Counted from the first letter of the stretch, positions 32-8,968 are shown. The stretch is DNA of 43,462 nt from Mollicutes bacterium (GCA_003557505.1 PWOH01000125.1:1-43462); one strand, 5' to 3'. The notes: generated by a model from the sequence alone, not told the origin. Numbers and translations: made by a program.

Positions 32-71
32 AAAAAACATTCACTACAGCATTTGTAGTGAATGTTTTTTT
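32..71. terminator. Bidirectional rho-independent terminator
   Basis: aaaaaacattcactaca-gcat-tgtagtgaatgtttttt, near-perfect long stem with A/T flanks, just 3' of the minus-strand operon end. Confidence 0.88.
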
Positions 72-91
72 ATAAGGAGAAATCTATCCGT

Positions 92-1405
92 TTACGCATT
101 TGCGTTATCGTTTTCATTGGATGATTCAGCACTTTTATCTGTGATTGTCTCATTCTCGGTTTCAACAATCGTATCAAGGACTTCTTTGACTCGCTTAGCA
201 AGTCCTTTAATTTTAGTAATTGGAATCGAACAAATCGCAACACGAAGGCCACCATAGACGTTGACAAAGAAAATATTGTGTTCTTTTAATTTTAGGTGCA
301 GCTCGTTTTTGACGACGTGATCATCAATGCGAATAGTCAGGAAAAAGCCTTCATGAAATGGATATAAGGGTAAGCCGACTTCTTCAGCCTCTTTTATCAT
401 TATTTTTGCACGTTTGGCAAGCAGTGCAACGTATTCATCTTTTTCGTTTAAATACGCTTGTTTGTTTTCTGGGTTAAGTGCGATATCACTAAAAGCGACC
501 ATACCACCGTTGTTGACAGTTGACCAAACACCACGTGCCGTATTCCCACAAGCATGTTTGAATTTTTTACGTCCTTTTTCGTTATTAGAGATTAACACTT
601 GTGCGCCAACGCGCATTCCATAAGCAGTTAAAGTTTTAGAAACAGAAAAAGCAATAACGGTTAGCACATTCTCATTCATCGCAGTGAATTTTTTAAAAAG
701 TTTCTTGTATTCATCTCCTTTTAGATTGAAATCAATATAAGCAACATCATGTAACAAGATAAAAGGGCCTTGTTCACTGAGTTTATTGATGAATTCCAAA
801 ACGTCATCCCATTCAGCTTCACTCATCGTGTAGCCTGTAGGATTTTGGCAAGGATCATTGATGAAGGCAAGCACTTTGCCTTGAGCTTTCATAACATTTG
901 TGCATGTTTCTTTGAATGATTCAAGGTTAAAGTGATCTCCTTCAAAGAGTTTGTAGTATTCCACAGGGGTGTTGTTTTCTTTAGCGATGGTTTTATAGGG
1001 TCCCCAGCCAATATCAGGGTGTATCACGGTTTCCCCGGGTGCCAAGGCATTTTTGGTAGTGGAAGAGAGGGCGCCGGTTCCTCCGGGTGTCGCAATCACA
1101 TCAGCGTCAATCTCTAAACCGACACTATCAAAGAGCCAGTGTTTTACCGCTAGCTGGTATTCAGGTGGACCAGCGATAGAAGAGGCGTATTTTGCCTTTT
1201 GGAAATCTGGCACTTTATCAAAAACACGATACACCGAATCAAACGTTAAAAACGCCTTGTCTTCTTTAAAATAGGTTCCGAATGCACCGTTGACAACATT
1301 CTCTTCACCATGCTTTTTTATTGCGGCGACTGCACCTTGTGCAGCTTCGAAAACGACATCAACAATTTCTTTTCCGTGAGATTGTTCGGAAATGAATTCT
1401 TTCAT
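92..1405 (-). CDS. Class I/II PLP-dependent aminotransferase (aspartate/aromatic type)
   Basis: 437 aa ORF; motifs NDPCQNPTGYTMSEAEW and AFSVSKTLTAYGMRVGA (PLP-Lys region); overlaps the upstream gene's stop by 1 nt. Confidence 0.85.
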   Translation of the reverse strand: MKEFISEQSHGKEIVDVVFEAAQGAVAAIKKHGEENVVNGAFGTYFKEDKAFLTFDSVYRVFDKVPDFQKAKYASSIAGPPEYQLAVKHWLFDSVGLEIDADVIATPGGTGALSSTTKNALAPGETVIHPDIGWGPYKTIAKENNTPVEYYKLFEGDHFNLESFKETCTNVMKAQGKVLAFINDPCQNPTGYTMSEAEWDDVLEFINKLSEQGPFILLHDVAYIDFNLKGDEYKKLFKKFTAMNENVLTVIAFSVSKTLTAYGMRVGAQVLISNNEKGRKKFKHACGNTARGVWSTVNNGGMVAFSDIALNPENKQAYLNEKDEYVALLAKRAKIMIKEAEEVGLPLYPFHEGFFLTIRIDDHVVKNELHLKLKEHNIFFVNVYGGLRVAICSIPITKIKGLAKRVKEVLDTIVETENETITDKSAESSNENDNANA

Positions 1406-3051
1406 TACTGATCACCACTAAGGGTTGCGATGATTTTTTGAAGCGTTTTAGGGGCTTCTTCAGGTAATATATCTTCGCCTTTGAGTGACGCGATGAAATC
1501 GAGTCTTCCTTGCAGGCGAGTGGTTAAATTATTTAGGTATTTTTTATCGTCTGAGTCAACATCGAATCCTTTAAAAGGCATGTATTCAATACTTGATAAA
1601 CCGTTAAATGGTTCAAACGCTGTTTTTCCTTCGATAATCGCTTCAATCGCTTCTAGGGTTGTTGCTGGTTGGATTTTCTTGTTGTTGAAAAAGCCAGTAT
1701 TTATAATAAAACAAGCGACATTTTGATCACGGAATAACTTCTTAAAGTTTTCGTAATCATCCTTTAAGGGATATAATCGGAAAGGATTGGCATAGGGTAC
1801 AAAAGCTAATTTATTAGGGTCTGCACCTTCCTCGGCACTTGTTCTTTTCGTGGCGAGTGTGGCCCCAAGCGTAGAAGCTAAGGTAGGGTCATTAATTTTA
1901 AGTAGTGGGGGCAGTGTATCATCTTTCATAATCCAAAAAATTGAATTAAGTGGTTCACTGAATTTATAGGCGCGAGAAGGGGTCCAATATTTAGATTTGA
2001 TGGCGCGTCCATTTCCGTTACGAATATCTTCAGTAACCGGGACGACTAAGCCATCTTCATCCAGTGTCGCACCTACATTTTGCACGGTCAGTAGGAAGCG
2101 GTTATCCGGTGAATCGGTCGGATAATCTTGAACTTTATCAAAGTAAGAGGGTTCAAGACTGACAGAGTAGAGTTGTTCATTTTCGATGACAAATGCGTCA
2201 TCGTGTAAGACCTCAATGTCGTATTTTCCATCATGTTTTGCGTGAGTGATTGTACTTTTGCCACTGCCTGAAAGGCCAAAGACACTCATGATATAGGGGG
2301 GTTTGGAACCGCGCATGATTTTTTTGATGCCACCGTGTGCGGCAGTGAAATTTTGTCGTTTAGCGAGTGACCATGCCATCGTCAAGGTGGCTTTCTTGTG
2401 TTCACCAAAGTAGCGCAATCCAAATAGGGAAGCACAATTGTGATCACGATCAAAAAGCGCTAAACCCGTTTCAAAATTTTCCACATAATAATCAGGATCG
2501 CTGTAAAGGAGAATATCCCCTTCATTGAACTCGCGAGAATTATTGTAAGTATCAATCCATGTTTCATCCATGACTTGGAAATTTAACATCCATGAATAAA
2601 GGGTGTTCTCATACCCTTCCGGTATTAATAGATGGGCCCGAACGGAAAAGTCTTCATGGAGCCCAATCATTACCGTAGCATGATACATGGTAACGTCTCG
2701 TGAAGAGAAGAGGGCTTCACGTAAAATTTTAGCGAAGTCTTCTTTGTTTTTTTCATCGATGATTCGTCGTGCTTGTGCTTGACGGCCAGTGATAGCGCCA
2801 TCATTAAACAACAGGACTTTGGCATCAGCTGGTAAACCAAGGTCTTCACTTCGGTAAACCGGGAGGTCACTTTTGATGACCCCCGGTGAGTTTTGTGCTA
2901 AATAATAAGCCTCTTCAAGTGTATTTATTTTAATGACATTATTGCGGTGATAAGCAGTTTCTATCGTGCTACGAATACGGTTAAACATGTGCGGTGTTTT
3001 TCCGCCAATGTCGCTTCTTTTTAATTGATTTCTTGTCGCCACGTCAATCAA
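1405..3051 (-). CDS. Divergent ATP-type phosphoenolpyruvate carboxykinase homologue
   Basis: 548 aa; P-loop FGLSGSGKSTITHAK, YFGEHKKATLTMAW (KK pair), AAHGG, VLHDDAF, LPPLLKI..; canonical GDDEHGW and EGGCYAK motifs altered. Confidence 0.72.
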   Translation of the reverse strand: MIDVATRNQLKRSDIGGKTPHMFNRIRSTIETAYHRNNVIKINTLEEAYYLAQNSPGVIKSDLPVYRSEDLGLPADAKVLLFNDGAITGRQAQARRIIDEKNKEDFAKILREALFSSRDVTMYHATVMIGLHEDFSVRAHLLIPEGYENTLYSWMLNFQVMDETWIDTYNNSREFNEGDILLYSDPDYYVENFETGLALFDRDHNCASLFGLRYFGEHKKATLTMAWSLAKRQNFTAAHGGIKKIMRGSKPPYIMSVFGLSGSGKSTITHAKHDGKYDIEVLHDDAFVIENEQLYSVSLEPSYFDKVQDYPTDSPDNRFLLTVQNVGATLDEDGLVVPVTEDIRNGNGRAIKSKYWTPSRAYKFSEPLNSIFWIMKDDTLPPLLKINDPTLASTLGATLATKRTSAEEGADPNKLAFVPYANPFRLYPLKDDYENFKKLFRDQNVACFIINTGFFNNKKIQPATTLEAIEAIIEGKTAFEPFNGLSSIEYMPFKGFDVDSDDKKYLNNLTTRLQGRLDFIASLKGEDILPEEAPKTLQKIIATLSGDQ

Positions 3052-3062
3052 TCCTTTCTAGT

Positions 3063-4184
3063 TTATTCGATATTCCACTTGAACTTTGGACGTGATTTGA
3101 CATAATCGCCACGCATCTTCAAGTTTTTCTCAATGCGTCTTTCCGCCATAATATTTGCGGCTTTATAGGTAGGAATATTTTCTTTCTCACTGATTTCAAA
3201 AATTTCAATTAACCGATCATAAATGCCTTCAGTGGTTTGAATAGCGGAAGGCTCATGATAACCAATCATTTCGTGATAAACATTGATGACACCACCGGCA
3301 TTAATCACAAAATCAGGTGCATATAAAATGCCTTTTTCTTCAAGCATCGGACCGTGTTTATCTTCATTTTTCAATACATTATTAGCGGCACCAGCTATGA
3401 CTTTAGCAGTTAGTTTAGGAATCGTTTCATCATTAAGTACCGCCCCGATTGCGTTTGGAGAGAAGATATCGATGTTCTTTTCAAAAATTTCATCTGGTTC
3501 CACAAAGTTCGCAAGTGGCATTAATTCTTTGAAAGTACGGATTTTCTCTTCATCGATATCGGTAAAGTAGATACGTTTGATATCATGTGATTTAAAATAT
3601 TGCACCATTTCTTGAACAACCGCACCAACACCTTGAAAACCGATGGTCAGTCCATCAAGATTATCTTGCTTGAATTTATGCTTAACCGCCGCTAACATCC
3701 CAACGTAAGTTCCCTTAGCAGTCAAAATCGTCGTTCTGCCTGCGCCTTTGCGTAAAACACCACTGACATAATCAGTTTCACGGTCCATAAATTCACAGTC
3801 AGTTAAGGTCATGTTCATGTCTTGCCCTGTATACACACGACCGTTTAAACTTTGAATATAGCGTCCGTATGAACGGAAGAACGCTTCGTTTTTCAATTTT
3901 TTAGGGTCCCCGATAATAACATTCTTACATCCACCGATGTCTAATCCGGCCGCAGCGTTTTTATACGTCATGCCACGCGCTAAGCGGGTTACATCATACA
4001 AAGCTTCTTCCTCAGAAGCATAATTGTAAAAACGTGTCCCTCCGCATGAAGGGCCTAAACGGGTATCGTGAATACAGGTAATGCCTTTAAGTCCGGTTTC
4101 TTTGTTATGAAAATAAATGATTTGTTCGAAACCATCATTTGTGTAACTGAAAACCTCGTTCGTAAACTCACTCTTTTTTTTCAT
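3063..4184 (-). CDS. Glu/Leu/Phe/Val dehydrogenase family protein
   Basis: GLKGITCIHDTRLGPSCGGTRF, AAAGLDIGGCKNVIIGDP, GFQGVGAVVQ, APDFVINAGGVINV; start moved to ATG 4184, which has AAAGGAG upstream, rather than the track's 4226. Confidence 0.88.
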   Translation of the reverse strand: MKKKSEFTNEVFSYTNDGFEQIIYFHNKETGLKGITCIHDTRLGPSCGGTRFYNYASEEEALYDVTRLARGMTYKNAAAGLDIGGCKNVIIGDPKKLKNEAFFRSYGRYIQSLNGRVYTGQDMNMTLTDCEFMDRETDYVSGVLRKGAGRTTILTAKGTYVGMLAAVKHKFKQDNLDGLTIGFQGVGAVVQEMVQYFKSHDIKRIYFTDIDEEKIRTFKELMPLANFVEPDEIFEKNIDIFSPNAIGAVLNDETIPKLTAKVIAGAANNVLKNEDKHGPMLEEKGILYAPDFVINAGGVINVYHEMIGYHEPSAIQTTEGIYDRLIEIFEISEKENIPTYKAANIMAERRIEKNLKMRGDYVKSRPKFKWNIE

Positions 4185-4209
4185 GTCTTTCTCCTTTGAA
4201 AGTTTTTTA

Positions 4210-5112
4210 TTATTGTAAATCCGCAACTAAAGCGGACAGTGCAATCGAATAAAATTTTGATTCCTTGGAGTCAGCTCTTGAGGTCAAGACAATTGGACAT
4301 TTAGCTCCAGCGATAACAGAAGCACTTTTCGCATTGGCTAAAAACATCATGGTTTTATAAAATACATTTCCGGCTTCAATGGCTGGCATTAACAATATAT
4401 CCAAATCACCAGCAATTGGTGATTGAATGCCTTTGTGGGCTGCTGCCTCTTTATTAATCGCATTATCAAGTCCAAAGGGACCATCAACAATGATATTCTT
4501 AATTATCCCTTTTTCACTACGTTTTTTTAGTTCATCCGCATCAAGGGTCGCTTGCATTTTGGGATTGACTTTTTCAACCGCTGCCACACAACCGACTTTG
4601 GGAGTTTTAATGCCAATTGCATTCGCAATAATCCCTGCGTTTTCAATGATTTCTTGTTTTTCATCGACATTAGGCGCAATATTCATCGCTCCATCACTCA
4701 TGAATAACAGTTTATGATAATTACTAGTTTCTATCACACTCACATGTGATAAGCGTCTTGAAGTTCGCAATCCTATGTCTTTATCTAACGCGGCTTTTAA
4801 AATAACAGAAGTATCCACATGCCCTTTCATTAAGAAATGTCCGGTGTTTTTACTGACGTGTTCAACCGCTTGCATACAAGCAGTTTTCGCATCGCTTACA
4901 TGATGAATTTCATAATCATCAGAATTAAGCCCTAAATTGTTAAACACGTCTAAAATCTTACGTTCATCTCCATAAAGGACAGCATTGACAAACCCTTCGG
5001 TTTTAGCCATTTCAACGGCTTCCATTACCGCGCTGTCCTCAGCGACAGCCACAACAATCGTCTTTTTTGTTTTTGTTTTTGCTAAATCAATTAAATCTTG
5101 CATGGTTTTCAT
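4210..5112 (-). CDS. ptb: Phosphate butyryltransferase / phosphate acyltransferase
   Basis: 300 aa; LMKGHVDTSVILKAALDKDIGLR, DGAMNIAPNVDEKQEI, DGPFGLDNAI; adjacent to butyrate kinase. Confidence 0.88.
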   Translation of the reverse strand: MKTMQDLIDLAKTKTKKTIVVAVAEDSAVMEAVEMAKTEGFVNAVLYGDERKILDVFNNLGLNSDDYEIHHVSDAKTACMQAVEHVSKNTGHFLMKGHVDTSVILKAALDKDIGLRTSRRLSHVSVIETSNYHKLLFMSDGAMNIAPNVDEKQEIIENAGIIANAIGIKTPKVGCVAAVEKVNPKMQATLDADELKKRSEKGIIKNIIVDGPFGLDNAINKEAAAHKGIQSPIAGDLDILLMPAIEAGNVFYKTMMFLANAKSASVIAGAKCPIVLTSRADSKESKFYSIALSALVADLQ

Positions 5113-5120
5113 ATTGTCAC

Positions 5121-6191
5121 CTACTCATAAATTTTTGCGGTTTCTTCTTCACGTAATACACGCAAGGCACCAAGTGCCAATGATTCCATTTCATCTTCAC
5201 CGGGATAAACCAGTAATTTTGCAATAAAGTCCGTCCGTCTAGTAATCTCATCAACAAGCATTGGATCGTAAGCCAAACCACCAGTTAAGACAATCGCATC
5301 AACGTCACCTGCTAAGACCGTTGCGCCACTCCCGATTTCTTTGGCGATTTGATAACACATGACTTTATAAATGAACTCAGCGTCTTTGTCGCCGTTTTCA
5401 ATGCGCTTTTGAATCTCGTAACCATCATTGGTGCCAAGATAAGCGACTAATCCACCATTACCATAGTTTTTACGCTTGATTTCCTCTAAGGTATATTTTC
5501 CACTAAAAACCATTTTATACAACGGACCAATAGGCACTTGCCCGCTTCGCTCAGGAGACATCGGACCATCTCCATCAAGTGCGTTATTGACATCAACAAC
5601 CCGCCCTTTTTTGTGGATGCCTACACTAATTCCACCACCTAAATGCGCGATAATCATATTGAGAGATTTATAGGGTTTGTCTAAGTCCTTTGCTGCTTTA
5701 AGCGCAACTGCTTTTTGGTTTAAGGCATGAAACAAGGAATCTCTTTTAATCTCTGGCATACCAGTAAACCGTGCAATGTCATCCATCTCATCCACCGCAA
5801 CAGGGTCAACTATAAACGAAGGGATATTTTGTTTATCGGCAATTTCCTTAGCGATGACACACCCAAGATTTGAAGCGTGTTCGCCTCGTGGTGCCTTTTT
5901 AATATATTGAATCATTGCGTCATTGACCGCATACGTTCCTGATTCAATCGGTTTTAACATGCCACCGCGTCCAACGACAGCCGCAAGTTCATCAACAGTG
6001 ATATTTTCTTCTTGTAAAGTATTCAAGATCGCCTCTTTGCGAAAATCGTATTGATCGATAATTGATTTAAATGAGGAAATAGTTTCACTATCGTGACGAA
6101 TGGTCGTTTTAAAGACACATTCTTCCTCATTAAAAACAGCAATCTTCGTACTGGTAGAGCCGGGATTGATTGCTAGTATTTTTTTACGCAT
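5121..6191 (-). CDS. buk: Butyrate kinase
   Basis: 356 aa acetokinase-family fold; ILAINPGSTSTKIAVF, NMIIAHLGGGISVGIHKKGRVVDVNNALDGDGPMSPERSG, ALGALRVL. Confidence 0.92.
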   Translation of the reverse strand: MRKKILAINPGSTSTKIAVFNEEECVFKTTIRHDSETISSFKSIIDQYDFRKEAILNTLQEENITVDELAAVVGRGGMLKPIESGTYAVNDAMIQYIKKAPRGEHASNLGCVIAKEIADKQNIPSFIVDPVAVDEMDDIARFTGMPEIKRDSLFHALNQKAVALKAAKDLDKPYKSLNMIIAHLGGGISVGIHKKGRVVDVNNALDGDGPMSPERSGQVPIGPLYKMVFSGKYTLEEIKRKNYGNGGLVAYLGTNDGYEIQKRIENGDKDAEFIYKVMCYQIAKEIGSGATVLAGDVDAIVLTGGLAYDPMLVDEITRRTDFIAKLLVYPGEDEMESLALGALRVLREEETAKIYE

Positions 6192-6229
6192 AATGTCCTC
6201 CTATGATGGGTAATTTAACAACAATTTTG

Positions 6230-6258
6230 ATTATAACATGATAGCGTTTTCACAACAA
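6230..6258 (-). promoter_or_regulatory. Predicted promoter of the buk-ptb operon, extended -10 (TGtTATAAT)
   Basis: Minus-strand TTGTTG-17 nt-TATAAT preceded by TGT; about 38 nt upstream of the buk ATG. Confidence 0.6.
6239..6252 (-). promoter_or_regulatory. cre-like operator (catabolite response element)
   Basis: TGAAAACGCTATCA on minus strand, 14/14 match to TGWAANCGNTNWCA, lying wholly within the -35/-10 spacer. Confidence 0.65.
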
Positions 6259-6340: not shown

Positions 6341-6363
6341 AAAAGCGCAAAAAATTGCGCTTT
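6341..6363 (-). terminator. Rho-independent terminator of tnaA
   Basis: Minus strand aaagcgcaa-tttt-ttgcgctttttc: stem plus T-tract overlapping the tnaA stop. Confidence 0.75.
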
Positions 6364-7747
6364 ATTTAATCGGTTGCATTTTGGCAGTAAAATGACGTAA
6401 AATTTGCGGTTCGTATGTAAATGTTAACCCTTTTAACTTTTTGCGGTCATTAAAAACTTTAATAACACCATCCGCAACGACTTTAAGGTGATTGTACGTA
6501 TACGTACGACGTGGAATGGTTAAACGCATAAACTGTAAAGGGGTATCAATGTTTTCATTGGTATCAGGATCGCGGCCCAGAAGTAGTGACCCAATTTCAA
6601 CGGCTCGAACGCCACTTTCAATATAAAGTGCATTGACAACGCTTTGAGCTGGAAATTGATCATAGGGAATATGAGGGGCAATGGCTTTGGCATCCACAAA
6701 AACAGCGTGTCCACCCGTTGGGTACTGAATAGGAACTCCAGCCTCACGTAATTGGTCACCTAAATATCGCACTTGATCAATACGATGTCTCAGATAATCT
6801 TCTTCGAGCCCTTCTTGTAATCCCACAGCGAGCGCCTCCATGTCACGCCCACTCATGCCTCCATAAGTTGGGAAGCCTTCCATTGGCACAATGGCACCTT
6901 GTACTTTTTTGAATAATTGCTCGTTGTCTTTAATGGCAATGATGCCGCCCATATTGACAAGCCCGTCTTTTTTGGCACTCATCAAGAAAACATCCGCCAT
7001 CGCAAAGACTTCTTGTGCGATTTCTAAAATCGAGTGATCTTGGTAGCCTTCCTCACGCATTTTCACGAAATAGGCGTTTTCAGAGAATCTAGCCCCATCG
7101 ATAATCACTGGAATACCATACGATCGCGCAATCTTTGCAGTTGCCTCTAAGTTTTCCATTGAAACTGGTTGTCCGCCTGCGGAATTGTTGGTGATTGTCA
7201 GGATAATACCCGCAATATTATCACTGCCTTTATCTTCAATGATACGTTTGAGTTTTTCGAGGTTAAAATTCCCCTTGAACGGATGATGTTTTGCTGTATC
7301 AAAACATTCATCTATAACACAGTCAATCGCTCTGGCTCCTGCGAGTTCCACATGCGCACGTGTCGTATCAAAATGCATGTTAGAGATAAAACTCATGCCT
7401 TTTTTATGGACGAATTGTGGCAACACGACTTGTTCAGCTCCGCGTCCTTGGTGGGCTGGGATAAAGTATTGATAATTGGTGATGTGTTTAACGACACTTT
7501 CTAAGCGATAAAAACTCCGTGAGCCAGCGTAGGCTTCATCGCCTTGCATCAAAGCGCCCCATTGCGCTTGCGACATTGCGCCAGTTCCAGAATCCGTTAA
7601 TAAATCTATGTATACATCCTCACTTTTCAGTGCGAAAGGATTGTATCCAGCGTTTTTAAGCAATTTGATTCTTTTGGTTTTGGGGATTTCTCTGATTGGT
7701 TCAACCATCTTAATTCGGTAAGGTTCAGCCTTGTAATTTTGGTTCAT
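6362..7747 (-). CDS. tnaA: Tryptophanase (tryptophan indole-lyase)
   Basis: 461 aa; DLLTDSGTGAMS, FIPAHQGRGAEQ, HFDTTRAH (Asp as in TnaA), MSAKKDGLVNMGG, GVRAVEIGSLLLGRDP (as TnaA, not the TPL Arg version), LTIPRRTYTYNH. Confidence 0.9.
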   Translation of the reverse strand: MNQNYKAEPYRIKMVEPIREIPKTKRIKLLKNAGYNPFALKSEDVYIDLLTDSGTGAMSQAQWGALMQGDEAYAGSRSFYRLESVVKHITNYQYFIPAHQGRGAEQVVLPQFVHKKGMSFISNMHFDTTRAHVELAGARAIDCVIDECFDTAKHHPFKGNFNLEKLKRIIEDKGSDNIAGIILTITNNSAGGQPVSMENLEATAKIARSYGIPVIIDGARFSENAYFVKMREEGYQDHSILEIAQEVFAMADVFLMSAKKDGLVNMGGIIAIKDNEQLFKKVQGAIVPMEGFPTYGGMSGRDMEALAVGLQEGLEEDYLRHRIDQVRYLGDQLREAGVPIQYPTGGHAVFVDAKAIAPHIPYDQFPAQSVVNALYIESGVRAVEIGSLLLGRDPDTNENIDTPLQFMRLTIPRRTYTYNHLKVVADGVIKVFNDRKKLKGLTFTYEPQILRHFTAKMQPIK

Positions 7748-7870: not shown

Positions 7871-8968
7871 ATGCAATTATTTGATAAAACAATACTAGGC
7901 GCCATTCAACTTAAAAATCGTTTCGCATTGGCACCAATGACTACTTATAGTGGTAATGCGAACTTAACCCCATCGAAAGAAGAGATTGAGTATTTACGCT
8001 TACGCAGTAAAGGCCCGGCCATGGTCATATCACCAGCCATCTGCGTCAATAAAAACGGCCAAGCATTTGTCAATCAAATGAGTCTCATTGATGATGAAAA
8101 AATCGCCCCAATGAAAGTGTTAGTTGATGCCATTAAAGCTTCGGGGGGGGTACCTATCGCACAGCTTCATCACGGCGGAAGAATGAATGATCCCGTGATT
8201 TTTGAAAATAAACAAGATATTGTCGCCCCAAGCGCAGTGCGTGCACCACGTGGCGATAAAGTAACGCCACGAGCGATGACAATTGATGAGATTGAAATGA
8301 CAGTTGAGGATTTCAAACAAGCAGCACTTCGAGCCATAAAAGCAGGTTATCAAGGCATTGAACTCCATGGGGCAAATACGTATTTGCTGCAGCAATTTTT
8401 CTCACCGCATTCCAATAAACGTAACGATGCTTACGGCGGAACGTTTGAAAAGCGTCTACGTTTCATTGAAGCAGTGATTGATGCTACCCAAGAGGTCATC
8501 GCAACCCATGCGGGTGATCAATTTATTTTAGGGTATCGCTTTTCCCCTGAAGAAATTGAAGCGGATGGTATTACGATGGATTTAACCTTACGCTTTATTG
8601 ACTTCTTAAAAACTAAAAACCTTGATTATCTACATGTATCCTTGCGTCGTTATGATCAAGGATCTATGCGGAATGAATCCAATCAAGAACCGTTAGTCAC
8701 TCAACTGAAACAACGCATTGATGGAAGGGCTCCATTAATGGGAGCAGGTGGCGTCAACGACCGTCAAACCGCGGAAGCCGCATTGGCGCAGGGATTGGAT
8801 TATATTGCAGTTGGTTTCTCATTATTAACCGATCCTGATTTTGTCGAAAAAGTGAAAAACGACCAACCAATCAGCAAGCATATCAATTCAGAAACATTAC
8901 CAAGCAATCTTTACCAGCGCTTATATAAAAATCGCGAACACTTTATGAAAAACGGCTTTACTTTTTAA
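7871..8968 (+). CDS. NADH:flavin oxidoreductase, Old Yellow Enzyme family
   Basis: 365 aa; RFALAPMTTYSG, AQLHHGGRM, GIELHGANTYLLQQFFSPHSNKRNDAYGG, GAGGVNDRQTAEAAL. Confidence 0.9.
   Translation: MQLFDKTILGAIQLKNRFALAPMTTYSGNANLTPSKEEIEYLRLRSKGPAMVISPAICVNKNGQAFVNQMSLIDDEKIAPMKVLVDAIKASGGVPIAQLHHGGRMNDPVIFENKQDIVAPSAVRAPRGDKVTPRAMTIDEIEMTVEDFKQAALRAIKAGYQGIELHGANTYLLQQFFSPHSNKRNDAYGGTFEKRLRFIEAVIDATQEVIATHAGDQFILGYRFSPEEIEADGITMDLTLRFIDFLKTKNLDYLHVSLRRYDQGSMRNESNQEPLVTQLKQRIDGRAPLMGAGGVNDRQTAEAALAQGLDYIAVGFSLLTDPDFVEKVKNDQPISKHINSETLPSNLYQRLYKNREHFMKNGFTF

Follow-up and report, generated by a model that had tools for sequence, protein, structure and literature searches.

Results and discussion

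Layout and boundaries of the operon

The window analyzed here, that is, the whole 43,462-nucleotide stretch of Mollicutes bacterium DNA, constitutes a single contig in a draft genome assembly of 1.53 Mb; this draft is 91% complete, and absences from the genome therefore carry little weight. Between positions 6191 and 92, on the minus strand, an ORF check places five genes head to tail: buk, ptb, an amino-acid dehydrogenase gene, a gene for a PEPCK homologue, and an aminotransferase gene. The first (5121 to 6191) encodes a butyrate/branched-chain fatty-acid kinase (TIGR02707, 541 bits for a cut-off of 289), and the second (4210 to 5112) a phosphate acyltransferase that scores 368 bits against TIGR02706 and 380 bits against PRK05805, somewhat below both cut-offs. 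They are followed by a dehydrogenase of the ELFV/leucine-dehydrogenase family with an L40C and A113G pocket (3063 to 4184), a divergent PEPCK homologue recognized by PF01293, by its Foldseek fold and by motifs aligned to E. coli Pck (1405 to 3042), and a class I aminotransferase (PF00155), aspartate-type by two arginines (92 to 1405).

Intergenic gaps range from -1 to 25 nucleotides. From the sequence context, the dehydrogenase probably starts at the ATG at 4184 and the PEPCK homologue at the GTG at 3042; with these revised starts, the spacings are 8 nucleotides between buk and ptb, 25 between ptb and the dehydrogenase gene, and 20 between the latter and the PEPCK gene, while the PEPCK-aminotransferase junction is a 1-nucleotide overlap, TAATG. 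Directly past the aminotransferase gene, an intrinsic terminator with a perfect 17-bp stem and a T run (36 to 74, minus strand; -22.5 kcal/mol, z -6.0) ends the operon. With one promoter, tight packing and one terminator, the five genes look like a single transcript. The initial annotation, which had described five packed one-strand genes bounded by a promoter and a strong terminator, was confirmed for the ORFs, the families, the hairpin and the promoter.

Upstream lies a tryptophanase gene on the same strand (6362 to 7747; PRK13238, 707 bits). Its TnaA-type residues (AVEIG, LRHFTA) rule out a tyrosine phenol-lyase. Another terminator (6342 to 6363, minus strand) separates it from the operon, and the gene is probably a linked neighbor on a separate transcript.

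Conservation of the gene order

The locus was compared with 27 others from an Izemoplasma-like family, making 28 family loci in all. The genes buk, ptb and pck are consecutive and in fixed order in every one of them. The only gene ever inserted, between ptb and pck, is that for the dehydrogenase; the arrangement is therefore not due to chance. Among relatives of the PEPCK homologue, those with a name and this gene order come from Candidatus Izimaplasma/Izemoplasma and 'Mollicutes' metagenome genomes; PEPCK is absent from four small genomes of one genus.

The dehydrogenase and tryptophanase genes, mostly together with a flavin oxidoreductase gene, co-occur in one clade only, which amounts to one event and rules out many independent ones. 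For this co-occurrence two loci, L058 and L063, are mislabelled because the ORF caller truncated the gene, which the locus comparison shows to be present. In the other clade the aminotransferase gene lies close to pck, in most cases a few kb downstream. The buk-ptb-pck set occurs without dehydrogenase or tryptophanase in roughly half of the family loci, and pck thus belongs to the core, the dehydrogenase being an add-on. One clade retains the tryptophanase gene (6362 to 7747, minus strand) and a divergent gene of the old-yellow-enzyme family (7871 to 8968, plus strand) alongside the window dehydrogenase.

A conserved promoter containing a cre-like operator

Upstream of buk, a -35 element TTGTTG (6253 to 6258, minus strand) stands 17 nucleotides from a -10 element TATAAT with an extended TGT (6230 to 6235, minus strand). 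The spacer is filled by a cre-like operator, TGAAAACGCTATCA (6239 to 6252, minus strand), an exact match to the cre consensus TGWAANCGNTNWCA. This is the one exact match in the window, where 0.24 would be expected, and it is kept across the family, with 13 to 14 of the 14 positions matching in relatives; among shuffled control sequences, 0.1% reached 14/14 and 1.4% reached 13/14. TTGt.g is kept at the -35 position in 27 of 28 buk promoters, CATGTTATAAT is common to all 27 promoters with the motif, and the full pattern TTGt.GTGaAAACGCTA.CATGTTATAAT is common to 27/28 loci. Over this footprint the columns carry 1.77 bits on average, whereas those of the two flanks carry 0.43 and 0.49. The sole locus without the conserved promoter, L054, carries an extra ORF between the tryptophanase gene and buk. 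A 450-aa ORF separates these two genes in L054 and L072, which are on the same contig, and this interval yielded no match to the conserved promoter. Past the -10 element, a second stretch (6212 to 6229, minus strand) is semi-conserved, reading CAAAATTGTTGTTAAA in one clade and GTAGTCGTGATTTTT in the other; it partly resembles the TTGTTGTGAAAA of the promoter and is possibly a second operator.

A simple sigma-70 promoter scan, whose performance was at chance level, missed the buk promoter because its -35 element is TTGTTG. A SigL promoter was rejected: no -24/-12 site (TGGCA-N6-TTGC, one mismatch allowed) is present upstream of buk. Genome-wide, the combined cre and -10 pattern has one exact match, at the buk promoter; the next-best place has two mismatches and all others three, which does not fit a genome regulon. 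A near-match on the contig that carries the VOR operon (see below) is not located ahead of that operon.

As an operator placed inside the spacer should block the polymerase, repression is the natural reading. The genome encodes an HPr kinase (354 bits, over the family cut-off). The best candidate regulator, judged by its sequence, is a CcpA-like protein of the LacI family whose gene, on contig 115, adjoins a tyrS-like gene; it scores 293 bits, under the family cut-off of 442. Any of three further LacI-family proteins matched in the genome could also bind the cre-like site.

The Ptb/Buk branch and comparison with known operons

The initial annotation proposed a branch leading from amino acid to keto acid, acyl-CoA, acyl-P and ATP, and predicted that the acyl-CoA-forming step, such as a ferredoxin oxidoreductase, would be encoded elsewhere. 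This prediction was borne out by a vorBAC operon on another contig (L047:5381-10863), where the genes in row are LDH2, a 215-aa protein, VorB, VorA, VorC and a second butyrate kinase, BUK2. VorB passes the threshold set for the 3-methyl-2-oxobutanoate dehydrogenase subunit family. LDH2 is a leucine-dehydrogenase-type paralogue of the window dehydrogenase; in the genera that carry the latter, vor is flanked by LDH2 and BUK2. Although the 215-aa protein matches nothing in Pfam or NCBIfam, it adjoins vor in 30/30 family loci examined. In a search of the 91%-complete draft, the window ptb was the only ptb found. AckA and Pta are encoded as separate genes, which rules out Ptb/Buk as simply the acetate pathway and, together with vorBAC, supports the proposed branch.

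The likeness to the Bacillus ptb-bcd-buk operon, also drawn in the initial annotation, is a fair one. The bkd operon (ptb-bcd-buk-lpdV-bkdAA-bkdAB-bkdB) shares with ours ptb, buk, a leucine-dehydrogenase-family gene and a link to amino-acid dissimilation. In B. cereus the bkd operon has putative cre sites, and deleting ccpA derepresses it along with gluconeogenic genes (PMC2358912). Our operon differs in gene order, in the addition of PEPCK and aminotransferase genes, and in having a -35/-10 promoter rather than a -24/-12 element. It also lacks the E1, E2 and E3 genes of the branched-chain 2-oxo acid dehydrogenase; E1 matches elsewhere in the genome include a PDH-type cluster. The VOR/OFOR plus Ptb-Buk systems of clostridia and gut acetogens share the route from 2-oxo acid through acyl-CoA and acyl-P to ATP, and in gut acetogens OFOR loci adjoin ptb, buk and aminotransferase genes (PMC13290082). 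Here, by contrast, vor belongs to another operon, and ptb-buk is linked with PEPCK. We found no report in the literature of a five-gene buk-ptb-dehydrogenase-PEPCK-aminotransferase operon. The components are all of known kinds, whereas their combination and the conserved promoter look newly described.

Proposed role and direction of the PEPCK reaction

The reading that we favor, and hold to be rather probable, is that of an operon subject to catabolite repression and serving growth on amino acids, in which Ptb and Buk would make ATP while the aminotransferase and PEPCK would feed gluconeogenesis. As long as sugar is abundant, a CcpA-type repressor would occupy the promoter together with HPr-Ser-P; once the sugar runs out, the operon would be switched on. 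The dehydrogenase would then act on an amino acid, probably bulkier than leucine or otherwise atypical, to give NADH, ammonia and a 2-oxo acid. From 2-oxo acids, acyl-CoAs would be formed by the VOR enzyme of the other contig, and Ptb and Buk would convert these into fatty acids and ATP. On the other side, the aminotransferase would form oxaloacetate from aspartate, and PEPCK would convert it into PEP for gluconeogenesis at the cost of one ATP. An ATP-yielding branch would thereby be coupled, in one operon, to an ATP-spending branch that supplies carbon. More tentatively, one sugar-repressed promoter, conserved almost letter for letter across the family, may drive both the ATP-forming end of a fermentation and the entry into gluconeogenesis, with a PEPCK from a separate clade and a dehydrogenase of new specificity. 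Such an operon predicts how free-living relatives of mycoplasmas may survive on peptides in sediments, and its conserved promoter is a readily testable instance of catabolite control in this wall-less lineage related to the Firmicutes.

The aminotransferase has residues as expected, from alignment, of an aspartate-type enzyme: the equivalents of Lys258, Arg292 and Arg386 are conserved in the homologues that cover those positions, Arg292 and Arg386 being the dicarboxylate-binding arginines. Its nearest solved structures are 3rq1 and 4emy. The aminotransferase step of the sequence first proposed, from aspartate through oxaloacetate to PEP plus ATP, is thus upheld in part by the two arginines. 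The 'PEP plus ATP' has the wrong sign, because the conversion of oxaloacetate into PEP spends one ATP (oxaloacetate + ATP gives PEP + ADP + CO2); PEPCK yields ATP only when it carboxylates PEP.

Two ATP-yielding branches, as first envisaged but with the arrow turned round, would be obtained if PEPCK turned PEP, CO2 and ADP into oxaloacetate and ATP, with the aminotransferase making aspartate. PEPCK does run from PEP to oxaloacetate in some capnophilic bacteria, even though its main role in most organisms is gluconeogenesis (PMC8100219). Relatives place PEPCK with an oxaloacetate decarboxylase, and since no enzyme with PYC/OADA domains was found in the 91%-complete draft, PEPCK may be an anaplerotic route to oxaloacetate. 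A sugar-repressed promoter, however, would silence the enzyme at the very time when PEP is plentiful, and the genome carries both pyruvate kinase and FBPase (fructose-bisphosphatase). The cre-like promoter and these two enzymes favor the ATP-consuming, gluconeogenic direction; two ATP-yielding branches are therefore improbable, and we regard carboxylation as rather unlikely. A role for PEPCK as a pyruvate-kinase bypass is also unlikely, given the pyruvate kinase and the failure to find a PYC/OADA-domain enzyme.

An altered pocket in the dehydrogenase

The dehydrogenase shares with leucine dehydrogenase (1leh, 6acf) its fold and the catalytic Lys68, Lys80 and Asp115, and differs from it in the side-chain pocket. 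With residues numbered as in leucine dehydrogenase by way of the alignment with 6acf, Leu40 is replaced by Cys and Ala113 by Gly in all orthologues examined, while Val291 and Val294 are kept, so that the aliphatic pocket Leu40/Ala113/Val291/Val294 is not found intact in the window enzyme. LDH2, on the other contig, retains Leu40 and Ala113. Phenylalanine dehydrogenase has Gly at the Ala113 position. By its residues, the enzyme is probably of altered specificity rather than a standard leucine dehydrogenase, and the altered pocket makes a plain role on valine or leucine doubtful for this enzyme, which the initial annotation had proposed as the link between the two branches.

The operon might then serve mainly a fermentation of aromatic or mixed amino acids, the dehydrogenase acting on an aromatic or bulky substrate and Ptb/Buk on its acyl-CoA, with PEPCK as a passenger. 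The invariance of both substitutions would fit this, as would the tryptophanase gene that adjoins wherever the dehydrogenase is present, and VOR-like enzymes are able to accept aromatic 2-oxo acids (PMC13290082). Against it, the presence of dehydrogenase and tryptophanase is a single event in a single clade, the buk-ptb-pck core is kept without either in about half of the loci, and pocket position Val291 stays leucine-type. We judge such a fermentation improbable as the main function, and retain the catabolite-repressed operon with gluconeogenic PEPCK.

Identity and distribution of the PEPCK homologue

The PEPCK homologue scores 53 bits against PF01293, above gathering and below the NCBIfam cut-offs, and is 14-16% identical to solved PEPCKs. 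Its predicted structure (pLDDT 82) has the PEPCK fold over the full length (Foldseek E 1e-24 to 1os1, TM about 0.68) and is about equally close to ATP- and GTP-type enzymes. Residues Arg90, Tyr214, Lys219/220, His239 and Lys265 align to Arg65, Tyr207, Lys212/213, His232 and Lys254 of E. coli, and are invariant in 15 sequences, as are the P-loop equivalents. Asp284/285 and Arg344 or Arg349, paired by eye with E. coli Asp268/269 and Arg333, are invariant as well. Compared with ATP-dependent PEPCK (PF01293; E. coli Pck, 1os1), the protein thus shares the fold and the majority of the residues for substrate, metal and P-loop, and differs by its identity of about 15%, its placement in a separate clade, and the Arg449 position, which appears as Lys in the alignment used.

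This clade is widespread in Lachnospiraceae and occurs in Tissierellia, Thermotogota, Halanaerobiales, Izemoplasma-type bacteria and others, pointing to a widespread group of PEPCKs without a close solved structure. In several lineages, including another family of the same order, its genes adjoin those for the alpha and beta subunits of oxaloacetate decarboxylase and biotin genes. Such proximity to a Na+-pumping oxaloacetate decarboxylase indicates oxaloacetate chemistry, and is good context evidence for oxaloacetate as the predicted substrate. That the protein is instead a related kinase acting on another substrate, as its low PF01293 score, low identity and sub-cut-off NCBIfam scores might suggest, is very hard to reconcile with the invariant equivalents of Arg65, Tyr207, Lys212/213, His232 and the P-loop, the full-length fold and the repeated linkage to oxaloacetate decarboxylase, and we consider it highly improbable.

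At five loci (L071:8846-14613, L037, L038, L087 and L097), genes for a member of the PEPCK clade, oxaloacetate decarboxylase alpha, a small subunit, a biotin carrier and the beta subunit are found in row, often joined by biotin ligase. In these rows, a conversion of PEP into oxaloacetate and then pyruvate could give both ATP and a sodium gradient.
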